This document shows positions 16,443 to 35,872 of a DNA stretch of 64,000 nucleotides, in pieces. The DNA is taken from positions 1 through 64,000 of the forward strand of contig CALWMN010000010.1 in assembly GCA_944381935.1 (NCBI GenBank). Reading direction: 5' to 3'. The notes beneath the pieces were generated by a model, which saw only the letters and a list, made by a program, of their open reading frames with translations, ran no database searches and was not told where the DNA came from. This DNA is from an uncultured Mediterraneibacter sp. (lineage in GTDB: Bacteria; Bacillota; Clostridia; Lachnospirales; Lachnospiraceae). The position numbers were made by a program, and so were the translations under genes. Every line of letters begins with the position of its first letter. The first letter of the stretch is position 1.

Positions 16443-16484
16443 AATGAGTACTCGGTGTGAAAGCCGGGTACTCATTATTTTTTA
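16443..16484 (+). terminator. Intrinsic terminator before the radical SAM pair
   Basis: AATGAGTACTCGG arm (16443-16455) and CCGGGTACTCATT arm (16464-16476), 13 bp with one mismatch, 8-nt loop, followed by ATTTTTTAT. It ends the upstream plus-strand transcript and rules out coding starts upstream of 16525 for the next gene. Confidence 0.88.
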
Positions 16485-16524
16485 TCCGTTTTTAGAAGCA
16501 ATCGGAAAGAAGGCGGGAAATAAT

Positions 16525-17427
16525 ATGAAGGCTTCTTCATTTATATATTTTGCCGGTTATGGTATCAGGACAATTCTGTTCGGGAAAAGAGAGCCTGTCC
16601 TTGGCACGGTTATCGTCACAGACAAGTGCAATTTGAAATGCAGGCACTGTTCGGTCAACAATATAACGGCAGTTGTCCACCCATATTTACAGATCCGAAA
16701 TGAGATGAGGCAGCTTTATGATATGGGCGTACGCATCCTGTTTTTCTGCGGGGGCGAAACATTCCTCTGGAGAGATGGTACGCGCACCTTGCGGGATTTG
16801 GTGGTGGAAGCAAAAAAGATAGGATTTCTCATTGTAAATGTAGTCACAAACGGGACCTTCCCCATAGATTTACCGGAAGCAGATTTAATTTTGCTCAGCC
16901 TTGACGGTGACAGGGACTGCCATAACGCAATTCGCGGCGATACATACGACACCATCATGGAAAACATAAAAAATGCGACTGCTGATAATATCTGCCTTTA
17001 TATGGCAATCAACAGGATCAACAAAGACGCTGTGCAGGATGTCTGCATCGCTGCCCGTGACACAAAAAATATACGGGCCGTCTCTTTTAATTTTCACACC
17101 CCTTATCCAGACACAAAGGACCTTGCTCTTTCTAAGGAGGAAAAAGCAAACTGCTGTGAGGCCATAAAAAAGATGATGAAAGCGGGAGCTCCTGTATTCA
17201 ACTTGCAGAGTGCATTTCCATATCTGATTAACAACAGCTTCCCTACGCCATGCCATCAATGCGTAGTCATTGAAAACGGAAAGGTTTCAACCTGCGGACG
17301 CTGTATCGATGTGCCGGGGCTTTGCAGCAAATGCGGCTACTTCTTTGTTGCCGAATACACGCTTTTATTCCGAGGAAACCCAAAGATTATTATCGAGATG
17401 TTAAAGACTTATCTGAAATATATTTAG
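16525..17427 (+). CDS. Radical SAM protein with a C-terminal cysteine cluster
   Basis: About 300 residues; substrate unknown. The radical SAM iron-sulphur motif is CNLKCRHC (about residues 36-43), with a GGE motif (FFCGGETFLW) for SAM binding and a NGT/SLDG barrel. The C-terminus has six cysteines in three CxxC pairs (CHQC, CGRC, CSKC), a SPASM-like auxiliary cluster site. Hydrophobic stretches at both ends suggest membrane contact. It starts at the ATG at 16525, after a terminator, with AAGGCGGG upstream. Seven bp separate it from the second radical SAM gene, whose Shine-Dalgarno overlaps its stop. I see no clear promoter for the pair. Confidence 0.82.
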   Translation: MKASSFIYFAGYGIRTILFGKREPVLGTVIVTDKCNLKCRHCSVNNITAVVHPYLQIRNEMRQLYDMGVRILFFCGGETFLWRDGTRTLRDLVVEAKKIGFLIVNVVTNGTFPIDLPEADLILLSLDGDRDCHNAIRGDTYDTIMENIKNATADNICLYMAINRINKDAVQDVCIAARDTKNIRAVSFNFHTPYPDTKDLALSKEEKANCCEAIKKMMKAGAPVFNLQSAFPYLINNSFPTPCHQCVVIENGKVSTCGRCIDVPGLCSKCGYFFVAEYTLLFRGNPKIIIEMLKTYLKYI

Positions 17428-17434
17428 GAGTAAT

Positions 17435-18688
17435 ATGAGTATCATTACAAACCTTACAAGAATGTGGCTGACCCGTTCGTCCAAACCGTTTGTCTTTAAA
17501 AATGAGTACGACCAACAGCTTCCCTATGCAGACTGTGACAGCCTGGGACTGTATGTACATATTCCTTTTTGCGAAAATATCTGCAGCTTTTGTCCTTATT
17601 GTAAAGTCAGATATTCAAAGGAATTATGTGACCGGTATATAGATGCCCTAATCCGGGAAATCCACGTTGTCGGCAGTCAGCATACCGGCAAGAAAGAAAC
17701 TACCAGCCTGTATTTTGGCGGCGGTACTCCGGCTCTTGCCGCGAACCGTCTCAAAGAAATCATTGACGCTGTCCGGGAGCATTTTGTTGTCACTGAAGGC
17801 ATCGGAGCAGAATTACATCCGGATAATATATCTCCATCGGTTCTGCACACCATCAAAGATGCAGGAGTAACTAAAATCAGTATTGGTATTCAGTCGTTTC
17901 AGCGGAAGTTCCAGGGCATTTTGGGCAGGACGGATGTTGATGCTCCGGCAATCAGGAAAGCATTGTCCGAAATCCCGTTTGAAACGGTTTCAATGGATTT
18001 TATTTTTGCGCTGCCGGGCCAGACCTTCCATGATTTGAAAGCTGATATTGACACGGCTTTCCAGAGCGGTGCAAATCATGTTGCGATTTATCCATTCATT
18101 GATTTTACTTTTACTTCAAGTACAGTAACGGCTATGCCAAAAAAAGAGAAGCATGCGCTTCTCAATGCAATTACGCAATACTGTCTGGACAAAGGGTATA
18201 CCCGCAGTTCTATCTGGACCTTCTCAAGCGAAAAGGAAGCAAAGTATTCGTCTATGACCAGAGATTATTTTTTAGGTTTTGGATGTTCAGCGACAACTCT
18301 GTTGAAAGACCAGTTCAAAATCAACACTTTCTCCGTAGACGATTATTGTAAAAGGATTGGGGAAGGAAAACTCCCGACCTCGCTGACGACCCGATTCTCT
18401 GTACGCCAGCGAATGGTTTATTATTTGTTCTGGACTGCTTACAGTACGAAAGTCGATGCCGGAGATTTTGAAAAATTCTTCGGCGTACCATTGAAACGCA
18501 TGTACGGTATGGAGTTAAAAGCGGCAAAGCTATTCGGTCTAATTACCGGGGAAAACGGAGTATACAGCATGACGCTGAAAGGAGCCTTTTACTATCATTA
18601 TTACGAAAGCTTCTACACGCTTGCCTATATTGACAAAATGTGGGGAATCATGAGGAAGGAAGCGTTCCCGGAAAAAATAGAGTTATAG
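17435..18688 (+). CDS. HemN/HemW-like radical SAM protein
   Basis: 417 residues. The N-terminal catalytic half has YVHIPFCENICSFCPYCK, with the CxxxCxxC cluster plus a fourth cysteine, then LYFGGGTPAL, SIGIQSF and MDFIFALPGQT, all hallmarks of the HemN/HemW branch. This branch also holds haem-degrading (ChuW/HutW) and class C methyltransferase enzymes, so coproporphyrinogen oxidation should not be assumed. The C-terminal part (about 300-417) is a HemN-type helical domain, with aromatic-rich FYYHYYESFYTL near the end. It is translated together with the preceding radical SAM gene. No haem genes lie nearby. Confidence 0.82.
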   Translation: MSIITNLTRMWLTRSSKPFVFKNEYDQQLPYADCDSLGLYVHIPFCENICSFCPYCKVRYSKELCDRYIDALIREIHVVGSQHTGKKETTSLYFGGGTPALAANRLKEIIDAVREHFVVTEGIGAELHPDNISPSVLHTIKDAGVTKISIGIQSFQRKFQGILGRTDVDAPAIRKALSEIPFETVSMDFIFALPGQTFHDLKADIDTAFQSGANHVAIYPFIDFTFTSSTVTAMPKKEKHALLNAITQYCLDKGYTRSSIWTFSSEKEAKYSSMTRDYFLGFGCSATTLLKDQFKINTFSVDDYCKRIGEGKLPTSLTTRFSVRQRMVYYLFWTAYSTKVDAGDFEKFFGVPLKRMYGMELKAAKLFGLITGENGVYSMTLKGAFYYHYYESFYTLAYIDKMWGIMRKEAFPEKIEL

Positions 18689-22386: not shown

Positions 22387-25300
22387 CTATTCTTCCTCAT
22401 CATCCAGGTATTCCTCAAACTCAATGTCATCATCGCCAAAGTCATCTTCGGAATCCTCCTCAGGCTCCACATCCTCAAGCTCTTCCCCGACAAATTCCTG
22501 TTCGGTAAACCCATGATCGCCAAACGACTCGTTCTGATCCCTGTACTTTCTGTCCCCCTCAATGATATGGCGCAGATCTGTTTCACCATAATCCACATTT
22601 TCCATGATCTCAACTTCTGTATTGTCATCGCGCAGCACACGGACATCCAGAGCCAGTGACTGAAGTTCCTTTAAAAGTACCTTGAATGACTCGGGAACTC
22701 CTGGTTCCGGTATATTCTCACCCTTGATAATCGCCTCATATGTCTTCACACGTCCCACGACATCATCGGATTTCACAGTCAGGATCTCCTGCAGTGTGTA
22801 GGATGCGCCGTACGCCTCAAGCGCCCACACCTCCATCTCTCCGAAACGCTGTCCGCCAAACTGAGCCTTACCGCCCAGGGGCTGCTGTGTAACAAGGGAG
22901 TATGGCCCGGTAGAGCGGGCATGGATCTTATCGTCTACCAGATGATGCAGCTTCAGGTAATGCATGTGCCCGATCGTAACCGGGCTGTCAAAGAATTCTC
23001 CCGTCCTTCCGTCCCGGAGGCGCACCTTACCGTCTCTGGAAAGCGGCACGCCCTTCCACAACTTCCTGTGTTCCCTGTTGTCAGACAGATACTGGAGTAC
23101 TTCCGGGAGCAGCTCCTCGCCATGCTTTTTCTCAAACTCATCCCATTCGAGATTCACATAGTCATTCGCCAGGTCAAGGGTATCCATGATATCCACCTCG
23201 TTCGCCCCGTCGAATACCGGTGTGGAAATATTGAATCCAAGCGCTTTTGCGGCAAGGCTTAAGTGGATCTCCAACACCTGCCCGATATTCATACGGGACG
23301 GCACACCCAGAGGATTGAGCACGATGTCCAGCGGACGTCCGTTGGGAAGGAACGGCATATCCTCCACCGGAAGCACGCGGGAAACGACACCTTTGTTGCC
23401 GTGGCGTCCTGCCATCTTGTCTCCCACAGAAATCTTTCTCTTCTGCGCAATATAGATTCGGACCGCCTCATTCACTCCGGGTGAAAGCTCATCCCCGTTC
23501 TCTCTTGTGAAGACTTTGGCGTCTACTACGATTCCGTATTCCCCGTGAGGCACCTTCAGGGAAGTATCCCTCACCTCGCGCGCTTTCTCTCCAAAGATCG
23601 CACGGAGAAGGCGTTCCTCTGCCGTCAGCTCCGTCTCGCCCTTCGGCGTCACTTTGCCGACAAGGATATCCCCTGCCCTGACCTCTGCTCCGATACGGAT
23701 AATACCTCTCTCATCCAGATCCTTAAGCGCGTCGTCTCCGACTCCCGGAATGTCCCTTGTGATCTCTTCCGGTCCAAGCTTCGTGTCTCTCGCTTCCGCC
23801 TCATATTCTTCGATATGGACAGAAGTATATACATCATCCTGGACCAGCCTCTCGCTTAAAAGAACGGCATCCTCATAATTGTATCCTTCCCATGTCATGA
23901 AACCGATCAGCGGGTTCTTACCCAGCGCCATCTCTCCGCCTGAGGTGGACGGACCGTCAACAATCACCTGGCCTGCCTCCACCCTCTCGCCTTTGTCGAC
24001 GATGGGTCTCTGGTTATAGCAGTTGCTCTGGTTGCTTCTCTGGAATTTGGTCAGTTTATATGTCTTCTTTGTCCCGTCATCATGACGGATCACGATCTCT
24101 GTGGATGTGGAACTCTCAACCACACCTGCCTGTTCTGCCACCTCACATACCCCGGAGTCGACAGCCGCCTTCACTTCCATACCGGTTCCCACGACCGGTG
24201 CTTCCGTTGTGAGAAGAGGCACGGCCTGGCGCTGCATGTTGGATCCCATCAGGGCGCGGTTTGCATCGTCATTCTGGAGGAAAGGGATAAGCGCTGTCGC
24301 GACGGAGAACACCATCTTCGGTGAAACGTCCATGTAGTCAAACTTGTTTCTCTCGTATTCCTGTGTCTCTTCACGATAACGTCCAGACACGTTTTTGTGT
24401 ACAAAGTGCCCCTCTTCATCCAACGGTGTGTTGGCCTGAGCCACATGGTAGTTATCCTCTTCATCTGCCGTCATGTATACGACTTCGTCCGTAACACGCG
24501 GATTGTTCGGATCTGTTTTGTCAACCTTGCGGTATGGCGCCTCAATAAAACCATACTCATTAATCCTTGCATATGTCGCAAGAGAGTTGATCAGACCGAT
24601 ATTCGGACCTTCAGGCGTCTCAATCGGGCACATTCTCCCGTAATGGGAATAATGTACGTCGCGGACCTCAAAACCGGCGCGGTCCCTGGACAAACCGCCA
24701 GGTCCCAGGGCAGACAGACGTCTCTTGTGTGTCAGCTCACCAAGCGGGTTGTTCTGATCCATGAACTGTGAGAGCTGGGAGGAGCCGAAGAACTCCTTCA
24801 CCGCCGCAGTCACCGGTTTGATATTAATCAGGGACTGTGGGGAAATCCCCTCCTGATCCTGTGTCGTCATACGCTCACGGACCACTCTTTCCAGCCTGGA
24901 AAGGCCGATCCGATACTGGTTCTGGAGAAGCTCTCCGACTGCACGGATACGTCTGTTTCCAAGATGGTCGATATCATCATCATTTCCTATTCCATACTCA
25001 AGATGGATATTATAGTTAATGGATGCAAGAATGTCTTCCTTTGTGATATGCTTCGGAATCAGGTCATGGATATCGCGCCTGATCATTCTCTTCATCTCAT
25101 CGATATCTCCTGCCGCTTCCTCAATGATGCCGGCAAGGACCGGATAGTAAACCTGCTCCTTTACTCCGACTTCCTTCGGGCCAATGCCGCAGGCCGCCTC
25201 AAGGTCCACCATCATATTGGAAAGGATCTTGATGTTTCTGGACTCGTCCTCTCCCTCTACCCATAAATACGGCACCGCACTGTTCTGGATCGCATCCGCG

Positions 25301-26253
25301 ATCTCAGCCGTCAGCCTCGTGCCTTTTTCCGCCACGGTTTCTCCCGTAAGGGGGCTTACCACATCCTCCGCCAGAACACAGCCTCTCACACGGTTTCTGA
25401 GCATCAGCTTTTTGTTGAATTTATAGCGCCCGACCTTCGCCAGGTCATAGCGCCTTGCGTCAAAGAACATGCTGGTAATCAGGCTCTCCGCACTGTCAAC
25501 TGCAAGCGGCTCGCCCGGACGGATTTTCTTGTATAACTCTAACAGACCCTCCTGATAGTTCTCAGCAGTGTCCTTCCCAAAGCTTGCAAGAATCTTTGGC
25601 TCCTCACCGAAAAGATCGATAATCTCCGCATTTGTACCGATCCCAAGGGCACGGATAAGAACGGTGATCGGAACCTTTCTTGTTCTGTCAACACGCACAT
25701 AAAAAACGTCATTGGAGTCTGTCTCATACTCAAGCCATGCCCCCCTGTTCGGGATCACTGTAGCTGAGTAAAGCTTTTTCCCGAGCTTGTCATGGGCGAT
25801 CCCATAATAAATTCCCGGAGAGCGTACAAGCTGGCTGACGATGACACGCTCAGCCCCATTGATCACGAAGGTTCCTGTCTTCGTCATCAAAGGGAGGTCT
25901 CCCATGAAAATCTCATGTTCATTTATCTCGTCATTTTCCTTATTATAAAGCCGCACTCTGACCTTCAGCGGTGCCGCATAAGTCGCGTCACGTTCTTTAC
26001 ACTCATCAATCGTATACTTCACATCATCTTCACAGAGTGTGAAATCTACAAATTCCAGGCTGAGATGGCCGCTGTAATCAGCGATTGGGGAAATATCATC
26101 AAATACCTCTTTGAGCCCTTCATCAAGGAACCACTGGTAAGAATCTTTCTGAACTTCAATGAGGTTTGGCATCTCCAAAACTTCTTTCTGCCTGGAATAG
26201 CTCATGCGGAAGCTCTTTCCGGTTTTAATGGGACGAATTCTGTTTTTCTCCAT
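22387..26253 (-). CDS. rpoB: DNA-directed RNA polymerase subunit beta
   Basis: 1288 residues. Typical beta features: the rifampicin region [58 protein letters not shown] (partially quoted as [20 protein letters not shown]), the MKKGLVLNGKQ-equivalent [16 protein letters not shown], and the C-terminal switch region [24 protein letters not shown]. The C-terminus is acidic. I use the ATG at 26251-26253 ([10 protein letters not shown]) with GGAG ten nt upstream, not an in-frame start six codons earlier. Confidence 0.97.
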
Positions 26254-26392
26254 TGACGTTTCACTCCTCATATATTTTTTTCAACCGCCCGGTTATAAAG
26301 CCGGACGCCTTGAACATCTGCTTATGAATGAAATTTGCCGGGCGCCCTTTCCGCCGCCATATGGCATACCTCTCCATAATAGAGCATCTTAT

Positions 26393-26543: not shown

Positions 26544-26921
26544 TTATTTCATGTTCACTTCTGCACCCTGCTCTTCCAGTTTTGCCTTGATCTCCTCAGC
26601 CTCTGCCTTGGATACGCCCTCTTTCAGTACCTTCGGAGCGTTGTCAACAAGCTCTTTTGCCTCTTTCAGCCCAAGACCTGTGATCTCACGTACAGCCTTG
26701 ATAACTTTAACCTTGGAAGCTCCTGCAGAAACAAGCTCTACATCAAACTCATCCTTCTCATCTGCTGCTGCAGCTCCGTCTCCGCCTGCTGCTGCAACTA
26801 CAACGCCTGCTGCTGCAGATACGCCGAACTCTTCTTCACAAGCCTTTACAAGCTCATTTAACTCTAATACTGATAACTCTTTGATCGCATCGATCATTTC
26901 AGCCGTTGTCAATTTAGCCAT
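26544..26921 (-). CDS. rplL: 50S ribosomal protein L7/L12
   Basis: 125 residues; the acidic stalk protein that recruits translational GTPases. N-terminal dimerisation domain ([36 protein letters not shown]), an Ala/Gly-rich hinge (about 36-55) and the C-terminal factor-binding domain ([26 protein letters not shown]). It follows rplJ by 74 bp and ends at a terminator. Confidence 0.98.
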
Positions 26922-26995: not shown

Positions 26996-27532
26996 CTATT
27001 CTGCCGCCGGTGCTTCCGCTGCCTCTGCAGCTTCTGCCGGAGCAGCCTCGCCGCCTTTCTCTGCGATCTGTTTGATAACACGCGCAAAGTTTGTAATCGG
27101 CGACTGCATGCTTCCAAGAAGTCTTGAAAGAAGTTCCTCCCTTGAAGGAATCTTGGAAAGCTCTGTCAGTCCTGCGATGTCATAGACATTGCCCTCAACA
27201 ACTCCGCCTTTCAGCTCAAGTGCCGGAGTGTCTTTTGCAAATTTGCAGAGAATCCTTGCCGGTGCCGTCGCGTCATCCTTGGAAATCGCAACAGCGCTCG
27301 GTCCTTCCAGACAGCTCTCAAGTCCCTCAAACTCAGTTCCCTCAAAAGCTCTCTTCATCATCGTGTTCTTGTATACTTTATAAACGACACCTGCTTCTCT
27401 GAGCTGCTTACGAAGCTCTGTATCCTGAGCAACTGTCAGTCCGCGGTAGTCGACAAGAACAACTGACTGAGCGTCTTTGATCTCTTCTGCGATCGCCTGA
27501 ACGATCGGCTGTTTCAATTCAACTTTTGCCAC
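26996..27532 (-). CDS. rplJ: 50S ribosomal protein L10
   Basis: 178 residues; anchors L7/L12 dimers to 23S rRNA and represses its own operon by binding the L10 leader. The start is GTG at 27530-27532 (MAKVELKQPIVQ) with AAGGAGGTG upstream; an earlier in-frame GTG at 27542-27544 lies inside the Shine-Dalgarno. Typical SVVLVDYRGLTVAQDTELRKQLREAG and YKVYKNTMMKRA. The Ala/Glu-rich tail (EAAPAEAAEAAEAPAAE) is longer than usual. It is preceded by an L10 leader and, unusually, by the Wadjet operon instead of rplA. Confidence 0.96.
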   Translation of the reverse strand: MAKVELKQPIVQAIAEEIKDAQSVVLVDYRGLTVAQDTELRKQLREAGVVYKVYKNTMMKRAFEGTEFEGLESCLEGPSAVAISKDDATAPARILCKFAKDTPALELKGGVVEGNVYDIAGLTELSKIPSREELLSRLLGSMQSPITNFARVIKQIAEKGGEAAPAEAAEAAEAPAAE

Positions 27533-27589
27533 TTTCGGGTACACCTCCTTATTTTATTCTGCGTGTACTGCCAAAGTATATATTCTACA

Positions 27590-27736
27590 GGGAGCCTTTC
27601 ACCCCATGTAAAACAAAACCCCCGTGCGCAAAGACACAGAGGTTCGCAAATTCATACTCACGTAATAAATCCCACTTTCCTCGGTAGGCGTTTTCATCCT
27701 TACGCTTCTCAGCACCTACTGTCTTCGGCAGTTGCT
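27590..27736 (-). promoter_or_regulatory. Ribosomal protein L10 leader with attenuator
   Basis: The minus-strand leader contains the conserved GAAGACAGTAGGTGC... / CCTACCGAGGA pairing (27685-27725) known from L10 leaders in Firmicutes. It is followed by an intrinsic-terminator-like hairpin (arms around 27617-27624 and 27634-27644: CCTCTGTG / CACGGGGG, then TTTTGTTTT). Excess L10 (or L10-L12) is known to bind such leaders and lower expression. Confidence 0.85.
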
Positions 27737-27741
27737 CATAT

Positions 27742-27770
27742 AAAATAACATATCCGCAAAAATGTGTCAA
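27742..27770 (-). promoter_or_regulatory. Promoter of rplJ-rplL
   Basis: Minus strand: TTGACA (27765-27770), 17-bp spacer, TATTTT (27742-27747). The -35 box begins 18 bp after the jetD stop codon; no terminator is visible between them, so the L10 attenuator is what would stop read-through from the Wadjet operon. Confidence 0.82.
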
Positions 27771-27787: not shown

Positions 27788-29029
27788 TCAGATATCGGCG
27801 GACTCATTTTCTCCTGCCAGAAGGATTTCCTGTTCGATCTCCATTCCGCTCTCAAGAATACAGTTCTTTAATTCCTCCAGTTCTCCGGCATCCAGTTTCT
27901 CCAGCCTCTCTCTTTTTAAGTCCCCTTTTTTTCCGCTGCCGACTTCACCATCCAGCGGGATTCCCGCTCCCTGGCCCAGCGCCCTGTAAAAGGTTTCTTT
28001 GTCCATTTTACAGGGTTTTAACTGCGGGAAAATATTCTTCTTGTTGAATTGGAAGATGCGGATCCCTCCCAGGTCCATATCACCCCAGTGAAGATACTCT
28101 GTCCCATCCTCCGCCACCGCGGCGATCCCCTTTAAAAATGCCATCTCCTTCGGAGAAAAGAATCCATGGCAGAACAGATACAGGGTATCCGGGCGGTATT
28201 CCATATCTTCATAGTTTGCCTTATTCTCTATGATGAGGACTCTCCTGACGCCGGGAAGCGCTGCGGGAACCGCGTGCTCCAGTGTCTGTGCATTGATGAC
28301 TGTGCCATAGAGGGAATCCGACGTGTCTACAGATATGCCCTCCCCTATGTGATAGCGCAGGGGCCCTTTCCACTCCAGGGTCTGTGAGTAGGTGAGGATG
28401 CCGTGTACCTTCAGAAGCTCCGCATCTGTCATCCCCTCTTCGCAGAAGGGAGAGTATTGTCTGAGAACCGATAAAATCCTGGACTGATACTCCTGTTCAA
28501 AAGCTTTCGTCTTCCCGAAAACCATCGCGCTGAACACGCGGCGCCAGACAGGTTTTTCCAAATAGAGCATCCTGTCCAGGCATCTGAAAAAGAGTTCATC
28601 TTCAAAGTCAACACTCTTTATTTCATCTCCCCTTTCCAGCCGGTCAAGATTCCTCTCATAATAGGGGGACAGCCACGTTCCTTTTGCCCGGGCGAGCCAT
28701 CCTTTTGTCTGCCTGATATACCGCTTCTGCCTGTGTCTCGGATCTTCTATTCCTTCCCTCTCGCACAGCGCCGGCATGATATCCACCGAATAGTGTATCT
28801 GTTTGATATCTGCCCCCAGATCCTCTTTCCTGAACTGGAGAAGCCCTTCACGCTTCAACTGATCCGCCTGTTCAATCAGCGCGCCCCGTCCCCCGACAGC
28901 CTCAAACACGCCAGAATCTATCTTCGTGTGCTTCATGCCCTTCAGCGTGCCCGCCCGGTACGCATTTCCGTCAATCTGCCCGATCAGATACCGGACCAGC
29001 GTCGTCTCCCGGTTCTTCACTTTTCCCAT
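27788..29029 (-). CDS. jetD: Wadjet system nuclease subunit JetD
   Basis: 413 residues. JetD is the topoisomerase-VI/Spo11-like nuclease that cuts small circular DNA after loop extrusion by JetABC. The N-terminal half (to about 230) is the arm/winged-helix region of the DUF3322 type. The C-terminal TOPRIM (DUF2220-type) domain shows the metal-binding Glu268 in LIIENKANYE and the DxD pair Asp317/Asp319 in HWGDMDLGG, all intact. It lies 3 bp after jetC and ends the operon. All key residues are present, so it should be active. Confidence 0.9.
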   Translation of the reverse strand: MGKVKNRETTLVRYLIGQIDGNAYRAGTLKGMKHTKIDSGVFEAVGGRGALIEQADQLKREGLLQFRKEDLGADIKQIHYSVDIMPALCEREGIEDPRHRQKRYIRQTKGWLARAKGTWLSPYYERNLDRLERGDEIKSVDFEDELFFRCLDRMLYLEKPVWRRVFSAMVFGKTKAFEQEYQSRILSVLRQYSPFCEEGMTDAELLKVHGILTYSQTLEWKGPLRYHIGEGISVDTSDSLYGTVINAQTLEHAVPAALPGVRRVLIIENKANYEDMEYRPDTLYLFCHGFFSPKEMAFLKGIAAVAEDGTEYLHWGDMDLGGIRIFQFNKKNIFPQLKPCKMDKETFYRALGQGAGIPLDGEVGSGKKGDLKRERLEKLDAGELEELKNCILESGMEIEQEILLAGENESADI

Positions 29030-29032
29030 CGG

Positions 29033-32000
29033 TCAGCCTTCCTCCCCCTCCAGCATATTCAGGTAATCTCCTTTGTCAATATGCATCATCGTGATCTGGT
29101 TCTTAAACCGGCGGAAGCCGTATACGCTGTCTACATTTCGGATCAGCGACTGCAGCCTTTCGTCCGGCACGCAGACGATAAGCTGCAGCTCCAGCTCCCT
29201 CGCGTATTTCAGGCACACTTCGCTCCGTTCCTTATCCATCTTGGAGAAGGCTTCGTCCAGGAGCACAAGGCGTATCCTGGAATCGCGGTTGCTCTGCTGC
29301 ATATACAGCATGGCAAACCCCGCCAGAAGGGCGACATATTTGGGGTTCTGCCCCTCGCCCCCGGAATCCACGCCTGCCATGTCATCCACATAGTTCTTCT
29401 TCTCATTTCCGTCCTCGTCCACAGTCCGCTCATACATGCTGAAAGTCAGGTAGTTCCGGTAATCGGCAAAGCGGTCCATATCCTGTCTGTGGCGCTCCCG
29501 TCCCGTGGTGTCCTCATCCCTCGGCGGCATGAATTTCCGGGTCAGAAGCTGTATTTTCTGCTCGTATTTCTGGAAAAACTCATCTTCCATCAGGCTCATC
29601 TGCCCCTCCACGCCGCCATGATGAATCACTTTGCTGTCCAGCTCTTCCGCCATCAGCATATCGTAGAACTGGCCGTTTTCATTCTTTGCCGGGAGAATGT
29701 CGATCTGATAGATACTGTCCGAAAAGCGTATTCTGGAAAGCATCTGGTTGATCTGCCTCCTGTGCCGGTATGCCGCCTTGATCTCTCCATGAATCGTGGC
29801 GATCACATTGTCCCGCAGGGAATGGTAGACCAGTTCATACTGCTTCTGGAACTCTTCCTTGTACCGGGGTTCAAAGTCCTTCCTGCATCGCTCGAGCACT
29901 TTGTCGTATACATCATTCTCGTGCTCATATCCGTCAAATCCATAGGAAGGATACGCCTTGTTGAACTCTCCTCTCGCCCGTCCTCTCTCATCTTGTGCCT
30001 CTGCCTCCTGCTCCCGGAGACGTTCAAGCTGCACCCTCTTCTCCTGGCGGTATGTTCCTTCGCTTTTCTTTTCCAGGGTCTGCCGCACCTGGGCAAGCAG
30101 AGTCTCATCCGGCGTATATCCCTCTCTTAGGGCAGACAGCCTCTCCTCCAGATCCCTGATGTCCCTCTGAGCTTTTCCCTTCGCCTCTCCGATGCGGATC
30201 TGCTCTTTCTGGAGGCTCCGCGCCTTTGCATCTTTCTCATCAATCTGCCCGTTCAGCTCTTCCACACGCGCTCTTAATCCTGCTGCCAGTGTCCCGTCTT
30301 TTAACTTTGCCAGCTCTTCCCTGAGCTTATCCTGTCTTCTGTAATATTCTTCCAGCTCCTCCGACGCCCTGGCAAGCCGGATCAGCTGGCCTGTCCCCTG
30401 GCTCAGCCGCTCATACTGCTGCGCCTCTTTCAGTGCAGTTTCCATCTGACGCTCTGAGATCATCTTTTGCTGAAGATCCGTAATCTCTTCCTCAAGCTCT
30501 CTGAGCTTTGCCCGGGAAACCCTTGTGCCGATGCAGGCATTTTTCGTATAATCTTTCTTTCTCAAGTGACGGAACATATAGCCGCTGTAGGAATAGCAGT
30601 CCGGCGTCACTCCGTCCTGCACCCCGTCCAGTTCCTCCACAGTCTCACATTTTTGTATCCTTCCAAGATATCGCTTCAGACACCAGTCCACATAGGAGAA
30701 CTCTGTGTGAACTGCCTCGTACAGAGAATTATGATCTGACGCGGGAGAATCTCTCTGTATCGCCGCACTGTTGATCAGGTCCGCTTCTTCAAAATTCTTC
30801 ATGCGCCGGAAAATCTTTGCCGCGTCAAGCGCATACGCGGGCTCGGTGATCATGCTGCGTTTTATCCTGCCAAGCCTCCCCTCCACGGCATCCTTCCATT
30901 TCTCGTCCGTGATATCAAAAAGATCCGCCAGAATGTGCACCTGGATCGTTCTTCCATACCTGTCGCCCAAAGCACTCTGCAGCTCCTGACGCGCCTTTTT
31001 CAGATCTGCCGGATACGGTTTCCTGTCATTGCGCATATCCTCCACTGCATCCGACTTCTCCTTAAACTCCCGCTCCATCTCTTTTATATTGCTTTGCAGC
31101 TCTGACAGCTCGTTCGTAATATTGTCCAGGGCCGAACTGAGATGCCGCTTCAATTCCCCGCAGGCAGCCTCCGTCACTTCTCCGGCGCAAAAATCCTGGA
31201 TGAGCTGCAGGGCACGGTTGCTCACATAGTCTGTCACCAGTTCTTCCTCTTCCCATCGCTTCAGCCCCTGCACGATCATGCGCCACTGGGCAGAATTATC
31301 CGCAAGGAGACGCACGGTCCTTTCAAGCTCAGCCAGCTCCTGCTCCTTCCTTCCGTAGTCGCTCTCCCTTAACTCAGCCTTTACATCCACCAGTTCGCTG
31401 CGCGCGTTGCTCAGCTCATCCTGAAGGCGGTTCTGTTCCTCTTCTGCCTTGCGCGCCGCGTCTTCCAGAGATTCCAGGTCACTTTTCCGCGACCCAAGAC
31501 GCTGCGTGCATCCCTCAATGTCGATATACTTAAGCTCAGTTTCTGTTCGCAGCTTATCCGCCCGCACATTTGCCAGTTCCCGGTCCCGGCTCTGAACCTG
31601 GTCGAGCAGAGATATCCTCTTCTCAAGATCTTCCACCCGTTCCTTAATCTCCCGGTACGCCCCGAGCTGCTCACTGATGGTGGCAACCGTATCCTCCTTG
31701 CTCTTCGGGAACATATAGTCCCGGATAAACTGTCCCGTCCCGCTTGTCATTTTTAGGGCAATGGCGCTTTTCTCCATTGTGATCATACGCCCCGGCTCCA
31801 CATAGCCGAAGATCACGTCGTAAAGCGTGTTGAGATAGGCTTCCCGGGACGGATAGACACGGTTAACATCACCGTGCCCGCGGTTGTCCTCACTCCTGCT
31901 CCTAGCCTCTGTCAGTTTTCTGATCTGCGCAACAGAATAGGGGACTCCATCCTTTAAATATTCATCCTCCGGTATTCTCCCCGAATGGCTGAAGAAATTA

Positions 32001-32386
32001 TATTTCCTCAGATCCTGGTCCCCTTTCCCGACCTCAAATACCGCGCCGATGCATGTCACGATATGAGTGCCGGTATCCTCGATCTCCAGCACGATCTGAG
32101 AACAGAAATCTATGCCGCCGCGGTTCGCGCTTCCGTCCTTCTGTGCGCCTCGCAGATAACTGAGGACACTCCGTTTGTTTTTCGCATCGTCAGCAGCTTT
32201 ATTCAGGAAATTCGCAGAGATACTGCCGTAGAGGACAACCTGGATTGCGTCCATGACCGTAGACTTCCCCGAACCGCTCTTGCCGCTGAACAGATTCACA
32301 TGCTCGTGGAACTTAAGTATCTTATGGCTGATGCCTCCCCAATTATTGATCAGCATCCGGGTAAATAGTTTCTTCGGCTGTCTCAA
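29033..32386 (-). CDS. jetC: Wadjet system SMC-like ATPase JetC
   Basis: About 1117 residues; MukB/SMC-like motor that extrudes loops on plasmid DNA. Walker A GKSGSGKST is at 35-43. Long coiled coils follow, with a hinge in the middle (around EKWKDAVEGRLGRI). The signature loop GGEGQNPKYVALLAGFAML and Walker B RLVLLDEAFSKMD lie near the C-terminus. I choose a TTG start at 32384-32386 because AGGAG lies 8 nt before it; an ATG at 32356 (MLINNWGG) or a TTG at 32416 are alternatives. It overlaps jetB by 44 bp. Confidence 0.9.
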   Translation of the reverse strand: MRQPKKLFTRMLINNWGGISHKILKFHEHVNLFSGKSGSGKSTVMDAIQVVLYGSISANFLNKAADDAKNKRSVLSYLRGAQKDGSANRGGIDFCSQIVLEIEDTGTHIVTCIGAVFEVGKGDQDLRKYNFFSHSGRIPEDEYLKDGVPYSVAQIRKLTEARSRSEDNRGHGDVNRVYPSREAYLNTLYDVIFGYVEPGRMITMEKSAIALKMTSGTGQFIRDYMFPKSKEDTVATISEQLGAYREIKERVEDLEKRISLLDQVQSRDRELANVRADKLRTETELKYIDIEGCTQRLGSRKSDLESLEDAARKAEEEQNRLQDELSNARSELVDVKAELRESDYGRKEQELAELERTVRLLADNSAQWRMIVQGLKRWEEEELVTDYVSNRALQLIQDFCAGEVTEAACGELKRHLSSALDNITNELSELQSNIKEMEREFKEKSDAVEDMRNDRKPYPADLKKARQELQSALGDRYGRTIQVHILADLFDITDEKWKDAVEGRLGRIKRSMITEPAYALDAAKIFRRMKNFEEADLINSAAIQRDSPASDHNSLYEAVHTEFSYVDWCLKRYLGRIQKCETVEELDGVQDGVTPDCYSYSGYMFRHLRKKDYTKNACIGTRVSRAKLRELEEEITDLQQKMISERQMETALKEAQQYERLSQGTGQLIRLARASEELEEYYRRQDKLREELAKLKDGTLAAGLRARVEELNGQIDEKDAKARSLQKEQIRIGEAKGKAQRDIRDLEERLSALREGYTPDETLLAQVRQTLEKKSEGTYRQEKRVQLERLREQEAEAQDERGRARGEFNKAYPSYGFDGYEHENDVYDKVLERCRKDFEPRYKEEFQKQYELVYHSLRDNVIATIHGEIKAAYRHRRQINQMLSRIRFSDSIYQIDILPAKNENGQFYDMLMAEELDSKVIHHGGVEGQMSLMEDEFFQKYEQKIQLLTRKFMPPRDEDTTGRERHRQDMDRFADYRNYLTFSMYERTVDEDGNEKKNYVDDMAGVDSGGEGQNPKYVALLAGFAMLYMQQSNRDSRIRLVLLDEAFSKMDKERSEVCLKYARELELQLIVCVPDERLQSLIRNVDSVYGFRRFKNQITMMHIDKGDYLNMLEGEEG

Positions 32387-32981
32387 TCTCTTCCGTCTCC
32401 TCTCTGTATTCTTCAATTAACGCATTGATGTCTCCCGCCGCCACGTACAGGTTCACTGTACTGTAAATGTAGACAGGTGTGCTGTCGTCCACATCGCGGA
32501 CTGCCCCCGGCACATCAATCACCTGGTGGACGCGCATCACAGACAGCGCCTCGCGCCACTCTGCCACGGTCAGCTTCTGCGTAATCAGGTTCGTATTCTT
32601 CCCGTATTCACGTATTTCCGAAAGGGTCGTGACCGGTGCGTTTAATCCCTCTCCCATGATCTTATCCCGGTAGATCAGCTTCATGAGGACCAGGATTATG
32701 GTTGACGTCACGCTCAGTTTCTCCGGCATGACGCCGTCCCCTGTCAGCCGGAAGATATGTTCCTGGGCATCGTGCACCAGCTCGCACCCCAGCACAGATA
32801 CATAATCCTCAATAAAGTTCCTGTGCCGCGCACATGTCGCATACAGCGGATTATCCCGGGGAGTGAGCGTCGCCGGGTCATATTTTACCTGAAGGATGCA
32901 GGTGTGACGGAACAGCGTCTGTACCGCCCTTTTTATCTGCTCCGCTTCTGTGACAGATACTTCTTCTAAATATGTAAACAT
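32343..32981 (-). CDS. jetB: Wadjet system KITE-like subunit JetB (DUF4194)
   Basis: 212 residues. The MukE-like partner that links the kleisin JetA to JetC. Visible: winged-helix-type segments (TLFRHTCILQVKYD, TLSEIREYGKNTNLITQKLT, EWREALSVMRVHQVIDVPG) and the YIYSTVNLYV strand common in DUF4194 proteins, then an acidic tail. AAGGAG lies 6 nt before the ATG. It starts 27 bp after jetA and its end overlaps jetC. Confidence 0.87.
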   Translation of the reverse strand: MFTYLEEVSVTEAEQIKRAVQTLFRHTCILQVKYDPATLTPRDNPLYATCARHRNFIEDYVSVLGCELVHDAQEHIFRLTGDGVMPEKLSVTSTIILVLMKLIYRDKIMGEGLNAPVTTLSEIREYGKNTNLITQKLTVAEWREALSVMRVHQVIDVPGAVRDVDDSTPVYIYSTVNLYVAAGDINALIEEYREETEEIETAEETIYPDADQ

Positions 32982-33008
32982 GTCTTCTCCTTTTCTTTTG
33001 CCGCTTTT

Positions 33009-34406
33009 TTATTCTTCCCGTATTTCCAGGGCAGAGAAGCTGAACCCCTGGGCGTTCTTCCTGTCTTCCCCGACCGTGATCTCATTTTCGCTGTGGGCGT
33101 TCTCTGTCGCCTCCTGCCACACAAAGAACAGTTTTTCCAGGTCTTCCACCGAGTTCACCGTACTGTCATCAACACGGAACACTCCGTCCTTCTCGTTCTT
33201 CCTTTTAAATCGCTGCAGCTCCTTTTGGGTATACAGAGGCTTTAAGATGAATGAGTCCAGCTCCCCTTCCGTCTGCTCTTCCTGTCTGACAGCCTGGGGA
33301 ATAAATTCCTCCCGTTCATTCTCCCTGCGCCTGCGCAGGCTGCTCTCCTTCATAACAGAATACTGCCGGGTCATATGTATCTTCGCTGTGAGCGCCTGCA
33401 GCAATTCCTCCTTCTTTCCGCTCCTGCCCAGCATATCTACAAGGACAACCGTCCGGTCTTCTTCCGCCCCTTCCCGGAGGACATATCGTATCCTTGCCGC
33501 CGCCCGGCTTGCAAATATCGTCTTCTGTTCGATCAGCTTATTATACCTGCGCTCAATCGCATCAAACTGGCGCTCAATGCGCAGCAGCGTATCCGATGCC
33601 TCGCCGCACAGAGAGACTGCCCTCTGGGCGCGGAGGAATTTCGGCGTGCCTCTCTCCAGCGTGTTCATCTCTTCATCAAGTTTCTGTCTGCGCACATCAT
33701 TTTCCCGCAGATTTTTGTCGATTAGCTCTTTTACCGCCTCTTTATAACGGTAAAAGCTGTCTGTTGTAGTCAATATCGCATACTTCCGGCTGTCGCTATT
33801 ATTGATTTCATTGACCAGGACCTCCTGGATTCCACGGAAATCTTTCTGCCTGGACAGCTCGTCAAAATACCCCCTCATCCCATCCTGCATATTCACCAGC
33901 ATCTGCACAAGCTTTTTGGAGACATTGAGCGCGCTTTTGAGAATATCGTTGTTCTTCTCCGTATCCGCGCTGTAAGTGTATAGATGGCTGTATATGGTCA
34001 TCACGCTTTCCCGCTCTTCGCTTTCACTCTCGTCAAGCAGGCGCCTGAAAAGTTCGACATACATCTGGCTGTACTCCGGGAACGTCACCACATAGCTGTT
34101 GAGCGTCTCGTCGTAATCCCGCCTCAGCCATCCCCATTCCTCAAAATGCTTCAGGCAGACTGACGCCATATTAGAACGGGTCAGAAAATTTCCCTCCTCG
34201 TCGTAATTTTCCTCATCCCAGAGAAGTGTCGCTGAGGCGATCTTTTCATTCATCACTGCACGGCACTCCTTCTCCGTCAGTCCGAGCACAGAATAAGACA
34301 GGCCCATTTCCTCATGGATCGCTGCCAGAAACAGGATGTATTGTTCTGTATATTTGCTTGCAAACAGTTTATAGAAATCCCCGGGTATCCTGCTCATAAG
34401 ATTCAT
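33009..34406 (-). CDS. jetA: Wadjet system kleisin-like subunit JetA (DUF5716-like)
   Basis: 465 residues. The MukF-like kleisin of the complex. The N-terminal winged-helix part ([61 protein letters not shown]), a long helical middle, and a C-terminal [17 protein letters not shown] segment with an acidic tail fit the JetA family of Clostridia. It is first in jetABCD. GAAGGAG lies 13 nt before the ATG, so a start three codons later (MSRIPGD) is possible. It has its own promoter 60-90 bp upstream. Assignment rests mostly on the neighbourhood plus recognition. Confidence 0.85.
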
Positions 34407-34464: not shown

Positions 34465-34493
34465 ATTATAGTATCATCCGGCACGGCACGCAA
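34465..34493 (-). promoter_or_regulatory. Promoter of jetABCD
   Basis: Minus strand: TTGCGT (34488-34493), 17-bp spacer, consensus TATAAT (34465-34470). It lies after the rplA terminator, so Wadjet is transcribed separately from rplKA. Confidence 0.72.
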
Positions 34494-34561
34494 CTCTCTT
34501 TCCCTTTCCTGCGCCTGCTTTTCCGGCGTTTTTCCTGGAATTTGCAGTCATTTTGCAGACG

Positions 34562-34608
34562 AAAAATCCCCGGAGGGACAGGAAAATTCCTGAAAATCCT
34601 CCGGGGAA
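34562..34608 (-). terminator. Terminator of the rpmG-secE-nusG-rplK-rplA transcript
   Basis: CCCCGGAGG / CCTCCGGGG stem (9 bp; arms at 34568-34576 and 34598-34606), followed on the minus strand by ATTTTT; 20 bp after the rplA stop. Confidence 0.87.
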
Positions 34609-34627
34609 ATATTCTCTCTTCTATATT

Positions 34628-35320
34628 CTATGCAAGCTTCATCGGGTTAACCTTTACGCCAGGACCCATTGTTGATGTAAGAGTCACACTCTTCAAGAAC
34701 TGTCCTTTTACGGCCGCCGGTCTTGCCTTGTTGATTGCATCGATAAGCGTCTGGAAGTTGTCCGCTAACTGCTCCTCAGTAAAGGAAGCCTTCCCGATCG
34801 GCACATGGATAATATTTGTCTTATCCAGCCTGTACTCGATCTTACCAGCCTTGATGTCGTTGATCGCTTTTGTCACGTCCATTGTAACAGTCCCGGCTTT
34901 CGGGTTAGGCATAAGCCCTTTCGGTCCAAGGACACGTCCGAGACGGCCCACGATACCCATCATATCAGGAGTTGCCACAACTGCATCAAACTCAAGCCAT
35001 CCCTCGTTCTGGATCTTCGGGATCATATCGTCGCCGCCTACATAATCAGCTCCTGCCGCCTTTGCCTCTTCTGCTTTTGCATCCTTTGCAAACACAAGAA
35101 TACGTACTTTCTTGCCTGTCCCGTGGGGAAGTACCACGGCGCCGCGGATCTGCTGGTCTGCATGGCGTCCGTCACACCCTGTCCTGATGTGAGCCTCGAT
35201 TGTCTCATCAAACTTTGCTGTTGCCGCTTTCTTTACCAATGCTACTGCTTCCTCTTTATCATAGAGATTACCCCTCTCGATCAGTTTTGAAGCTTCAATA
35301 TATTTTTTTCCTCGTTTCAT
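34628..35320 (-). CDS. rplA: 50S ribosomal protein L1
   Basis: 230 residues; forms the mobile L1 stalk at the tRNA exit site and represses its own operon in E. coli. Typical sequence: [48 protein letters not shown] and [23 protein letters not shown]. It follows rplK by 126 bp. The translation-initiation region is nearly the same as that of rplK. A terminator comes next rather than rplJ. Confidence 0.97.
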
Positions 35321-35446: not shown

Positions 35447-35872
35447 CTACTCTTCTACAACAACGCCCATAGAGCGGCATGTTCCTGCTACCATGCTCAT
35501 AGCCGCCTCTACAGTCGCAGCATTGAGATCCGGCATCTTTGTCTCAGCGATCTCTCTGAGCTGGTCTTTTGTGATCGTTGCCACTTTGTTTTTGTTCGGC
35601 ACGCCTGAACCGGACTGGATCTTGCACGCTTTCTTGATCAGAACCGCTGCCGGCGGTGTCTTTGTGATAAAGCTGAAACTTCTGTCATTGTATACCGTGA
35701 TCACGACAGGGATAAGCACGTCCCCCTGATCCGCTGTCCTTGCATTGAACTGCTTTGTGAACTCAACGATGTTCACACCGTGCTGTCCAAGCGCGGGTCC
35801 AACCGGCGGTGCCGGGGTTGCCTTACCGGCAGGAATCTGTAATTTGATATAACCTTCTACTTTTTTTGCCAT
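35447..35872 (-). CDS. rplK: 50S ribosomal protein L11
   Basis: 141 residues; GTPase-centre protein and thiostrepton site. It begins [35 protein letters not shown], with the proline-rich N-domain, and continues to the rRNA-binding C-domain ([23 protein letters not shown]). It starts after AAGGAGGT, 51 bp beyond the nusG stop. Confidence 0.98.

Follow-up and report, generated by a model that had tools for sequence, protein, structure and literature searches.

Type I Wadjet systems (JetABCD, known as MksBEFG in C. glutamicum and EptABCD in M. smegmatis) are sets of four genes in the order A-B-C-D whose products carry ATPase and TOPRIM motifs. The MksBEF and MukBEF condensins have three kinds of subunit, and MksBEF occurs without a nuclease gene. 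Published speculation has defence SMC complexes turning into chromosome condensins; related literature includes PMC10586767 (with its section 7), PMC10123090 and PMC12287153. Chromosomal insertion hotspots and defence islands recurrently receive varied cargo at one core-gene junction. The leader of the B. subtilis rplJL unit is described as an L10-controlled attenuator (PMC4538822).

We considered 64,000 nucleotides of DNA from an uncultured Mediterraneibacter sp. (the whole stretch is called the window below), in which jetA, jetB, jetC and jetD lie directly between rplA and rplJ in the open reading frame list, all on the minus strand. The four genes, their order and their ATPase and TOPRIM motifs are those of type I Wadjet, while the position inside the rplKA-rplJL cluster and a history of JetD unlike that of JetABC are different. 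We found nothing in the literature searched joining Wadjet with rplJ, or Wadjet with Mediterraneibacter, and among the matches listed no title or abstract opening on rplA/rplJ hotspots, orphan JetABC, MksBEF without MksG or Wadjet hotspots described the arrangement. The novelty lies in where the Wadjet operon sits and in the way motor and nuclease come apart within one slot. We consider it very likely that the window carries a complete type I Wadjet in an insulated and recurrently used slot, reached by JetABC probably once, and that its JetD is exchangeable. Genomes and loci are cited below by our own G and L numbers.

A complete type I Wadjet operon

The preliminary description of this DNA placed a complete jetABCD precisely in the gap from rplA to rplJ, with all genes on one strand, and the coordinates and the PADLOC and Pfam matches agree with it (Table 1). 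The top PADLOC matches of the four proteins are JetA1, JetB1, JetC1 and JetD1, almost end to end, and the Pfam assignments concur, which answers the concern that these might not be Jet homologues; all four components of a type I Wadjet are present in one operon. The matches to the JetA1, JetB1 and JetC1 models, and the presence of JetD, also distinguish the window from MksBEF and MukBEF. An NCBIfam scan of the window proteins gave no Jet family above its cut-off, and PDB sequence searches at the thresholds used gave no match for JetD, JetC or JetA singly, nor for a JetD profile. The start of jetC is an uncertain TTG, which makes it overlap jetB by 74 nt. We presume the rpl and rpoB gene names on the strength of their sequences; those of rplA and rplJ are borne out by homologue searches. 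Elsewhere in the window, at 16444-18688 on the plus strand, two neighbouring radical SAM proteins are encoded downstream of a two-component pair.

Table 1. Features of the Jet operon and the neighbouring ribosomal protein genes in the window.
Feature	Position	Strand	Basis
rplK	35447-35872	minus	ORF
rplA (L1), left slot border	34628-35320	minus	ORF; own-genome match and family-wide homologues
rplA terminator hairpin and U-run	34555-34625	minus	folding: -32.9 kcal/mol, z -5.2, 0/200 shuffles
jetA promoter-like site TTGCGT-17-TATAAT	34465-34493	minus	direct reading
jetA, kleisin, 465 aa	33009-34406	minus	Pfam PF18982 1e-80; PADLOC JetA1 7.9e-222
jetB, KITE-like, 212 aa	32343-32981	minus	Pfam DUF4194 2.2e-9; PADLOC JetB1 2.8e-106
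jetC, SMC-like ATPase, 1127 aa	29033-32416	minus	PADLOC JetC1 E=0; motifs
jetD, TOPRIM-type nuclease, 413 aa	27788-29029	minus	PADLOC JetD1 2.6e-138; triad; predicted fold
rplJ promoter-like site TTGACA-17-TATTTT	27742-27770	minus	promoter scan; same kind in congeners
L10 leader RNA	27604-27746	minus	RF00557, 71.9 bits; fold z -2.3
terminator-like hairpin inside L10 leader	27616-27645	minus	terminator scan
rplJ (L10), GTG start, right slot border	26996-27544	minus	ORF; homologue search
rplL	26544-26921	minus	ORF
rpoB	22387-26271	minus	ORF

The catalytic residues are intact, as had been claimed. JetC keeps GKSGSGKS, SGGEG and LVLLDEA, which we take to serve as its Walker A, signature-like and Walker B motifs, and JetD residues E268, D317 and D319 are invariant across 23 aligned JetD sequences. 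A structure model of JetD (pLDDT 85.8, pTM 0.56) has as its best fold matches the C. glutamicum nuclease MksG (8b7f, E 1e-9) and P. aeruginosa JetD (7til, E 3e-8), followed by topoisomerase VI-A and Spo11, so that both the acidic TOPRIM residues and the fold are those of a type I JetD. Because TM-scores are low (about 0.3 for 8b7f and 7til, about 0.3-0.5 over all matches), we draw the fold relation from the E-values and the order of the matches. The window's genome has a single JetC match in a search of 200 family genomes, and a single JetD_C gene. This is an ordinary, complete type I Wadjet operon, and it is probably active. By analogy with published Wadjet work, JetABC, with its intact motor motifs and signs of purifying selection, would be an SMC motor that extrudes DNA loops, while JetD, given its fold and acidic triad, would cut small circular plasmids once they are fully extruded.

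The operon region does not stand out as foreign in base composition, with a GC content of 0.523 against 0.503 in the rest of the window, in keeping with the preliminary description. An assembly artefact, the other concern raised there, can be dismissed because 15 other congeneric genomes carry Jet in the same slot, among them those of M. catenae SW178 and R. turbiniformis CLA-AA-H200, both of which are isolates.

A recurrent insertion slot between rplA and rplJ

A comparison of the rplA-rplJ gap across the Lachnospiraceae, which the preliminary description had proposed, revealed a recurrent insertion slot. Of the 58 congeneric genomes, 38 supplied the 39 loci that we compared within the genus (window included, G213 counted twice). 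Many of the congeneric genomes are metagenome assemblies; G213 carries two Jet copies and is perhaps a mixture of genomes, and G250 has only a fragment of rplJ. The gap exceeds 1 kb in 26 of these loci, 17 with JetC and 9 with other cargo, and the remaining 13 are empty, with 206-452 bp between rplA and rplJ. With one genome per genus, the gap exceeds 1 kb in 29 of 106 genera of the family, window included, among the matches listed (150 of 186 rplJ and of 187 rplA places, with 119 genomes common to both, 13 of which were dropped for having the two genes on different contigs or strands). Among these same listed matches the median distance is 308 bp and 105 of 106 distances are under 50 kb; G171, where the genes are 195 kb apart, is counted in the 106 and excluded from the 29. 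Outside the family, 5 of 58 genomes of the order have a gap above 1 kb. All eight genomes drawn from family f11 of the order have rplA on one contig and rplJ on another, and the rplKA-rplJL order is for that reason probably broken there.

The neighbouring junctions never opened by more than 1 kb, either between rplK and rplA (0/76, maximum 292 bp) or between rplJ and rplL (0/76, maximum 213 bp), in loci that had already been retrieved and were not a random draw. One junction thus takes up unrelated cargo repeatedly while those beside it stay closed, as at an insertion hotspot, and we dropped the idea of a one-off insertion since the slot is occupied repeatedly in both genus and family. No integrase is found in the window's slot; single transposase-type genes are present in slot loci L109 and L048.

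JetABC is the commonest slot cargo in Mediterraneibacter. The other cargo in the genus comprises surface proteins with Big_2, GA and FIVAR domains, glycosidases, and PTS, MFS and amino-acid permease genes; in other genera it comprises ABC transporters, regulators, PGA_cap proteins, amidohydrolases and surface proteins. The 49-kb rplA-rplJ interval of G244 (L110/L111), the middle of which was not covered, holds JetABC together with an O-antigen ligase, a kinase-TPR protein and others. A PGA_cap-family protein is the commonest single cargo among the other genera fetched, with carriers at the slot in eight of them (L037, L038, L043, L052, L054-L057) and 41-61% identity between genera; perhaps it is an older resident of the slot. 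A second defence-like type of cargo is a 1295-aa NACHT protein (NNH7) at L039:4995-8882 in G141.

PADLOC, run at 1e-10 on 95 non-Jet cargo proteins, matched 16 families with one to four proteins each, there being no background set for comparison. The 95 comprise 66 of the 93 open reading frames of the other-genera slots and 29 from eight of the nine non-Jet slots of the genus; the G250 slot and extra genes beside Jet are excluded. Among the matches were NACHT-type PDC-S03, Cas12f-like models fitting a TnpB, mad1/3/8, Csx1 and CARF. We take the slot to be general and not defensive because its cargo is varied and the PADLOC matches are few; a defence-specific island was dropped as an explanation, as defence-like proteins are few among the 95 and enrichment of defence genes was not found. 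The slot differs from described hotspots and defence islands in that its cargo is mostly metabolic or surface-related, with few defence genes, and in the lack of an integrase in the window's copy. The suggestion that this arrangement ties defence, specifically, to an essential locus is not supported, as the same slot also admits transporters, glycosidases, surface and polysaccharide genes, defence-like proteins are few, and the slot looks insulated.

Probable transcriptional insulation of the slot

Both borders carry signals of their own. The terminator that the preliminary description placed after rplA, ahead of the operon, is recovered by folding, and a promoter-like TTGCGT-17-TATAAT upstream of jetA agrees with its proposal of a separate jet promoter; the TATAAT (34465-34470) is perfect and lies 17 bp from a weak TTGCGT, and the site falls below the threshold of an automated scan. 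At the other end no terminator separates jetD from the rplJ promoter, as had been noted, although the promoter-like TTGACA begins 17 bp past the jetD stop and not 18 bp. Because the leader itself contains a terminator-like hairpin, read-through from jetD would meet it ahead of rplJ.

These features recur. The leader core was recognisable in 39 of 40 congeneric regions before rplJ (it was not found in one), and in all 39 a TTGACA-16/17-TAnnnT immediately precedes it. In 18 of the 26 occupied congeneric loci, no more than 60 bp lie between the end of the last cargo reading frame (150 aa or longer) and the rplJ promoter, or the frame overlaps the promoter by at most 14 bp; in the remaining eight it ends 88-883 bp short. 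By a simple scan, rplA is followed by a terminator in 44 of the 52 gaps above 1 kb (the eight misses include the window, whose hairpin was detected by folding), in 1/1 of 600-1000 bp, in 13/18 of 260-600 bp and in 0/6 below 260 bp, where room scarcely exists; for the leader terminator the corresponding counts are 47/52, 1/1, 15/18 and 6/6. The L10 leader and terminator-like hairpin before rplJ are as in B. subtilis (PMC4538822); different here is that unrelated cargo abuts the leader promoter.

Alternatively, the position of Jet might be fixed for regulatory reasons: transcripts running on from jetABCD would feed rplJL and couple defence to the supply of ribosomes or RNA polymerase. Jet does share the strand of rplJ in 17 of 17 slot loci, and the spacing in the window is only those 17 terminator-free base pairs. 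We nevertheless think this very improbable, given that 13 of the 39 genus slots are empty and 9 hold other genes, that the leader has retained a promoter of its own and, in most loci, the terminator hairpin, and that the B. subtilis leader is an attenuator under L10 control (PMC4538822). To us the slot looks insulated and not coupled, lying between an rplKA unit that would end at its own terminator and an rplJL unit that would start from its own promoter and L10 leader. Because a terminator follows rplA, and a promoter and hairpin-bearing leader precede rplJ, insertion would be tolerated and would disturb neither neighbouring unit. In the Lachnospiraceae the site is opened repeatedly and takes up varied cargo.

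History of JetABC in the genus

Scanning the genomes for JetC gave 62 loci, 19 of which have Jet beside rplA or rplJ, and all 19 belong to the window's genus (Mediterraneibacter, Ruminococcus turbiniformis and uncultured relatives). For the remaining 43, the flank examined (up to 9 kb on each side) contains no rpl gene, and Jet was absent from all 40 rplA-rplJ regions fetched from other genera. In L175, L176, L184, L186, L191 and L202, part of a Roseburia/Agathobacter branch, the gene order is jetD-A-B-C and not A-B-C-D.

The JetC tree that the preliminary description had called for, built from 59 sequences without the partial genes of L122, L142, L177, L190, L192 and L197, unites 23 Mediterraneibacter copies in one clade, 19 of them in the slot or next to rplA where a contig ends, and 4 elsewhere; the broken JetC of G209 (L141) falls outside. 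Its view of an old, fixed arrangement is therefore half right: the single clade makes Jet old in the genus, but with 17 of 39 loci occupied it is not fixed. JetABC probably reached the slot once, early in the genus.

Two or more independent arrivals are also possible, though we would not favour them; the window's copy would then stem from the lineage that G246, G230, G219 and G254 carry elsewhere. The window's JetC groups (SH-aLRT 99) with these four copies, which lie outside the slot or are not tied to it (in G254, rplA and rplJ are on different contigs), and since its closest relatives (82-83%) sit elsewhere in the chromosome in three species with an empty slot, a second arrival could have occurred in the window's lineage. 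Against this, the site label requires at least two changes on the JetC tree, and one arrival with one move out fits the same tree with the same two changes; moreover, the window's JetD matches that of a slot species.

JetD as a separate module

The history of JetD is a separate one, and the gene is frequently absent, neither of which could have been seen in the preliminary description, drawn up from the letters of the window. JetD of the window and of G237 are 84% identical, as against 73% for JetC; in DNA, jetD is 85% identical, jetA, jetB and jetC 69-73%, and rplK, rplA and rplJ 87-89%. The JetC data reject a clade of the window and G237 (AU 3e-43, quick tree), whereas the JetD data join the two (100/100) and reject the grouping of the window with L139 and L140 (AU 4.6e-6). 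Between G237 and its sister G222, identity in 200-bp steps is 90-100% from rplA through jetABC and 98-100% in leader and rplJ, yet G222 has no jetD despite these near-identical flanks.

Among the 17 slot loci with Jet, JetD is full-length in 10, decayed in 1 (G213, L103) and lacking in 6 (G206, G221, G222, G224, G233, G244); outside the slot, G230 (L138) has a 46-residue JetD scar. Of the cultured carriers, M. catenae SW178 has JetABC but no type I JetD, and R. turbiniformis CLA-AA-H200 has JetD. At 53 informative loci a JetD match lies beside JetABC in 29, the decayed one included, and none in 24, counts that are not of independent events because near relatives are among the rows; presence and absence require at least 18 changes on the 59-row JetC tree. 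From these comparisons, JetD behaves as a detachable, exchangeable module with a history separate from that of JetABC: the window has its JetD in common with G237, a species with JetABC of a different lineage, while other species keep JetABC without it. Exchange probably proceeds through homologous recombination, with the conserved rpl genes and the leader as anchors.

A JetD overlooked through divergence was considered and rejected, as a JetD HMM found 10/10 positive controls, distant ones included, and nothing at 30 JetD-less loci, pieces below 50 aa such as the L138 scar being invisible to it; nor did it find JetD at the loci of G145, G191 and G171. A substitute effector was likewise rejected, with no clear candidate among neighbour families. 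If rpl genes, JetD, JetB and a single gene next to rplK are set aside, none of these is shared by more than five loci, and three 3-locus families occur only beside JetABC without a JetD match (L160/L162/L183, twice, and L163/L164/L195), partly in close relatives.

JetABC without JetD

The JetD-less loci could be decaying remnants on their way to loss. The decayed jetD of G213, the scar in G230 and the broken jetC of G209 are what such a process would leave, and the G237-G222 pair, with few changes, has dN/dS of 0.24 for JetA and 0.76 for JetB, which goes against strong constraint there. The rest of the evidence makes decay improbable as a general account. All intact JetD-less JetC keep their ATPase motifs (a GMSGSGKS variant of Walker A occurs in the JetD-less L187 and L188, and also in L191, which has JetD). 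Fourteen pairs in which a member has no JetD match give JetC dN/dS of 0.028-0.081 (0.053-0.076 where both surely lack one), as against 0.037-0.070 in five pairs with JetD, a sixth being saturated; JetD itself gives 0.097-0.145. A seven-row JetC clade outside the genus has no adjacent JetD in the six rows with enough flank.

Loss of a surface that touches JetD was another idea considered for JetD-less JetABC and dropped. Relaxed columns are not in excess in JetD-less JetB or JetC, where 32/60 and 14/60 label shuffles reach the observed count; JetA has 8 against a shuffle mean of 1.0 (0/60 reach it), with shuffles that ignore relatedness. This comparison left out L162, L163, L181 and L182, whose contigs end soon past jetC, L188, whose contig starts shortly before jetA, L141 with its broken jetC, and the partial-gene rows omitted from the tree. 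JetABC without JetD is not visibly decaying, and in being under selection without a nuclease gene, with three kinds of subunit and no adjacent nuclease, it resembles MksBEF and MukBEF.

Another explanation, rather unlikely in our judgment, is that JetD-less JetABC still defends by borrowing JetD from a second Wadjet locus of the same genome. A JetD_C (PF09983) match, in several cases weak, lies elsewhere in 16 of 27 JetD-less genomes (G009, at a contig end, and G209 were searched and left out of the 27). The other 11, some of them incomplete assemblies, have no match: 6/11 in a first set (G222, G221, G244, G246, G230 and G145, completeness 79-99%) and 5/16 in a second. In addition, all 11 matches of the second set (L220-L230) lie within about 2.5 kb of a reading frame of 1088-1512 aa, which may be the nuclease's own JetC; three of these frames match the JetC model and eight are JetC-like by length alone. 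Other Lachnospiraceae genomes may thus hold a further Wadjet-like locus. Three matches in the genus are DUF3323+DUF2399 proteins, which we take to be type II-like JetD, and further matches lie in G191 and G171.

The role of JetABC without JetD may be chromosome organisation, non-cleaving plasmid silencing, or partnership with the JetD of another locus. Going beyond the exchangeable JetD that we favour, we tentatively raise, without leaning towards it, the idea that Lachnospiraceae JetABC is a self-standing SMC motor, chromosomal or non-cleaving, and JetD an optional cartridge that is lost and regained through recombination anchored in the rplJ leader.

Conclusions

A gene order that is among the best conserved in bacteria can, as the slot shows, admit foreign genes if it is insulated on both sides. 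The published speculation that defence SMC complexes gave rise to condensins becomes testable because JetABC persists without JetD, with motifs and low dN/dS kept, and G237 and G222, with near-identical JetABC but with and without JetD, are a natural test of a nuclease-free motor. If the idea of a motor with an optional cartridge is true, Mediterraneibacter would offer a view of the proposed transition between plasmid defence and chromosome condensin while it is under way, and the insulated rplA-rplJ slot would be the place where cartridges are swapped.
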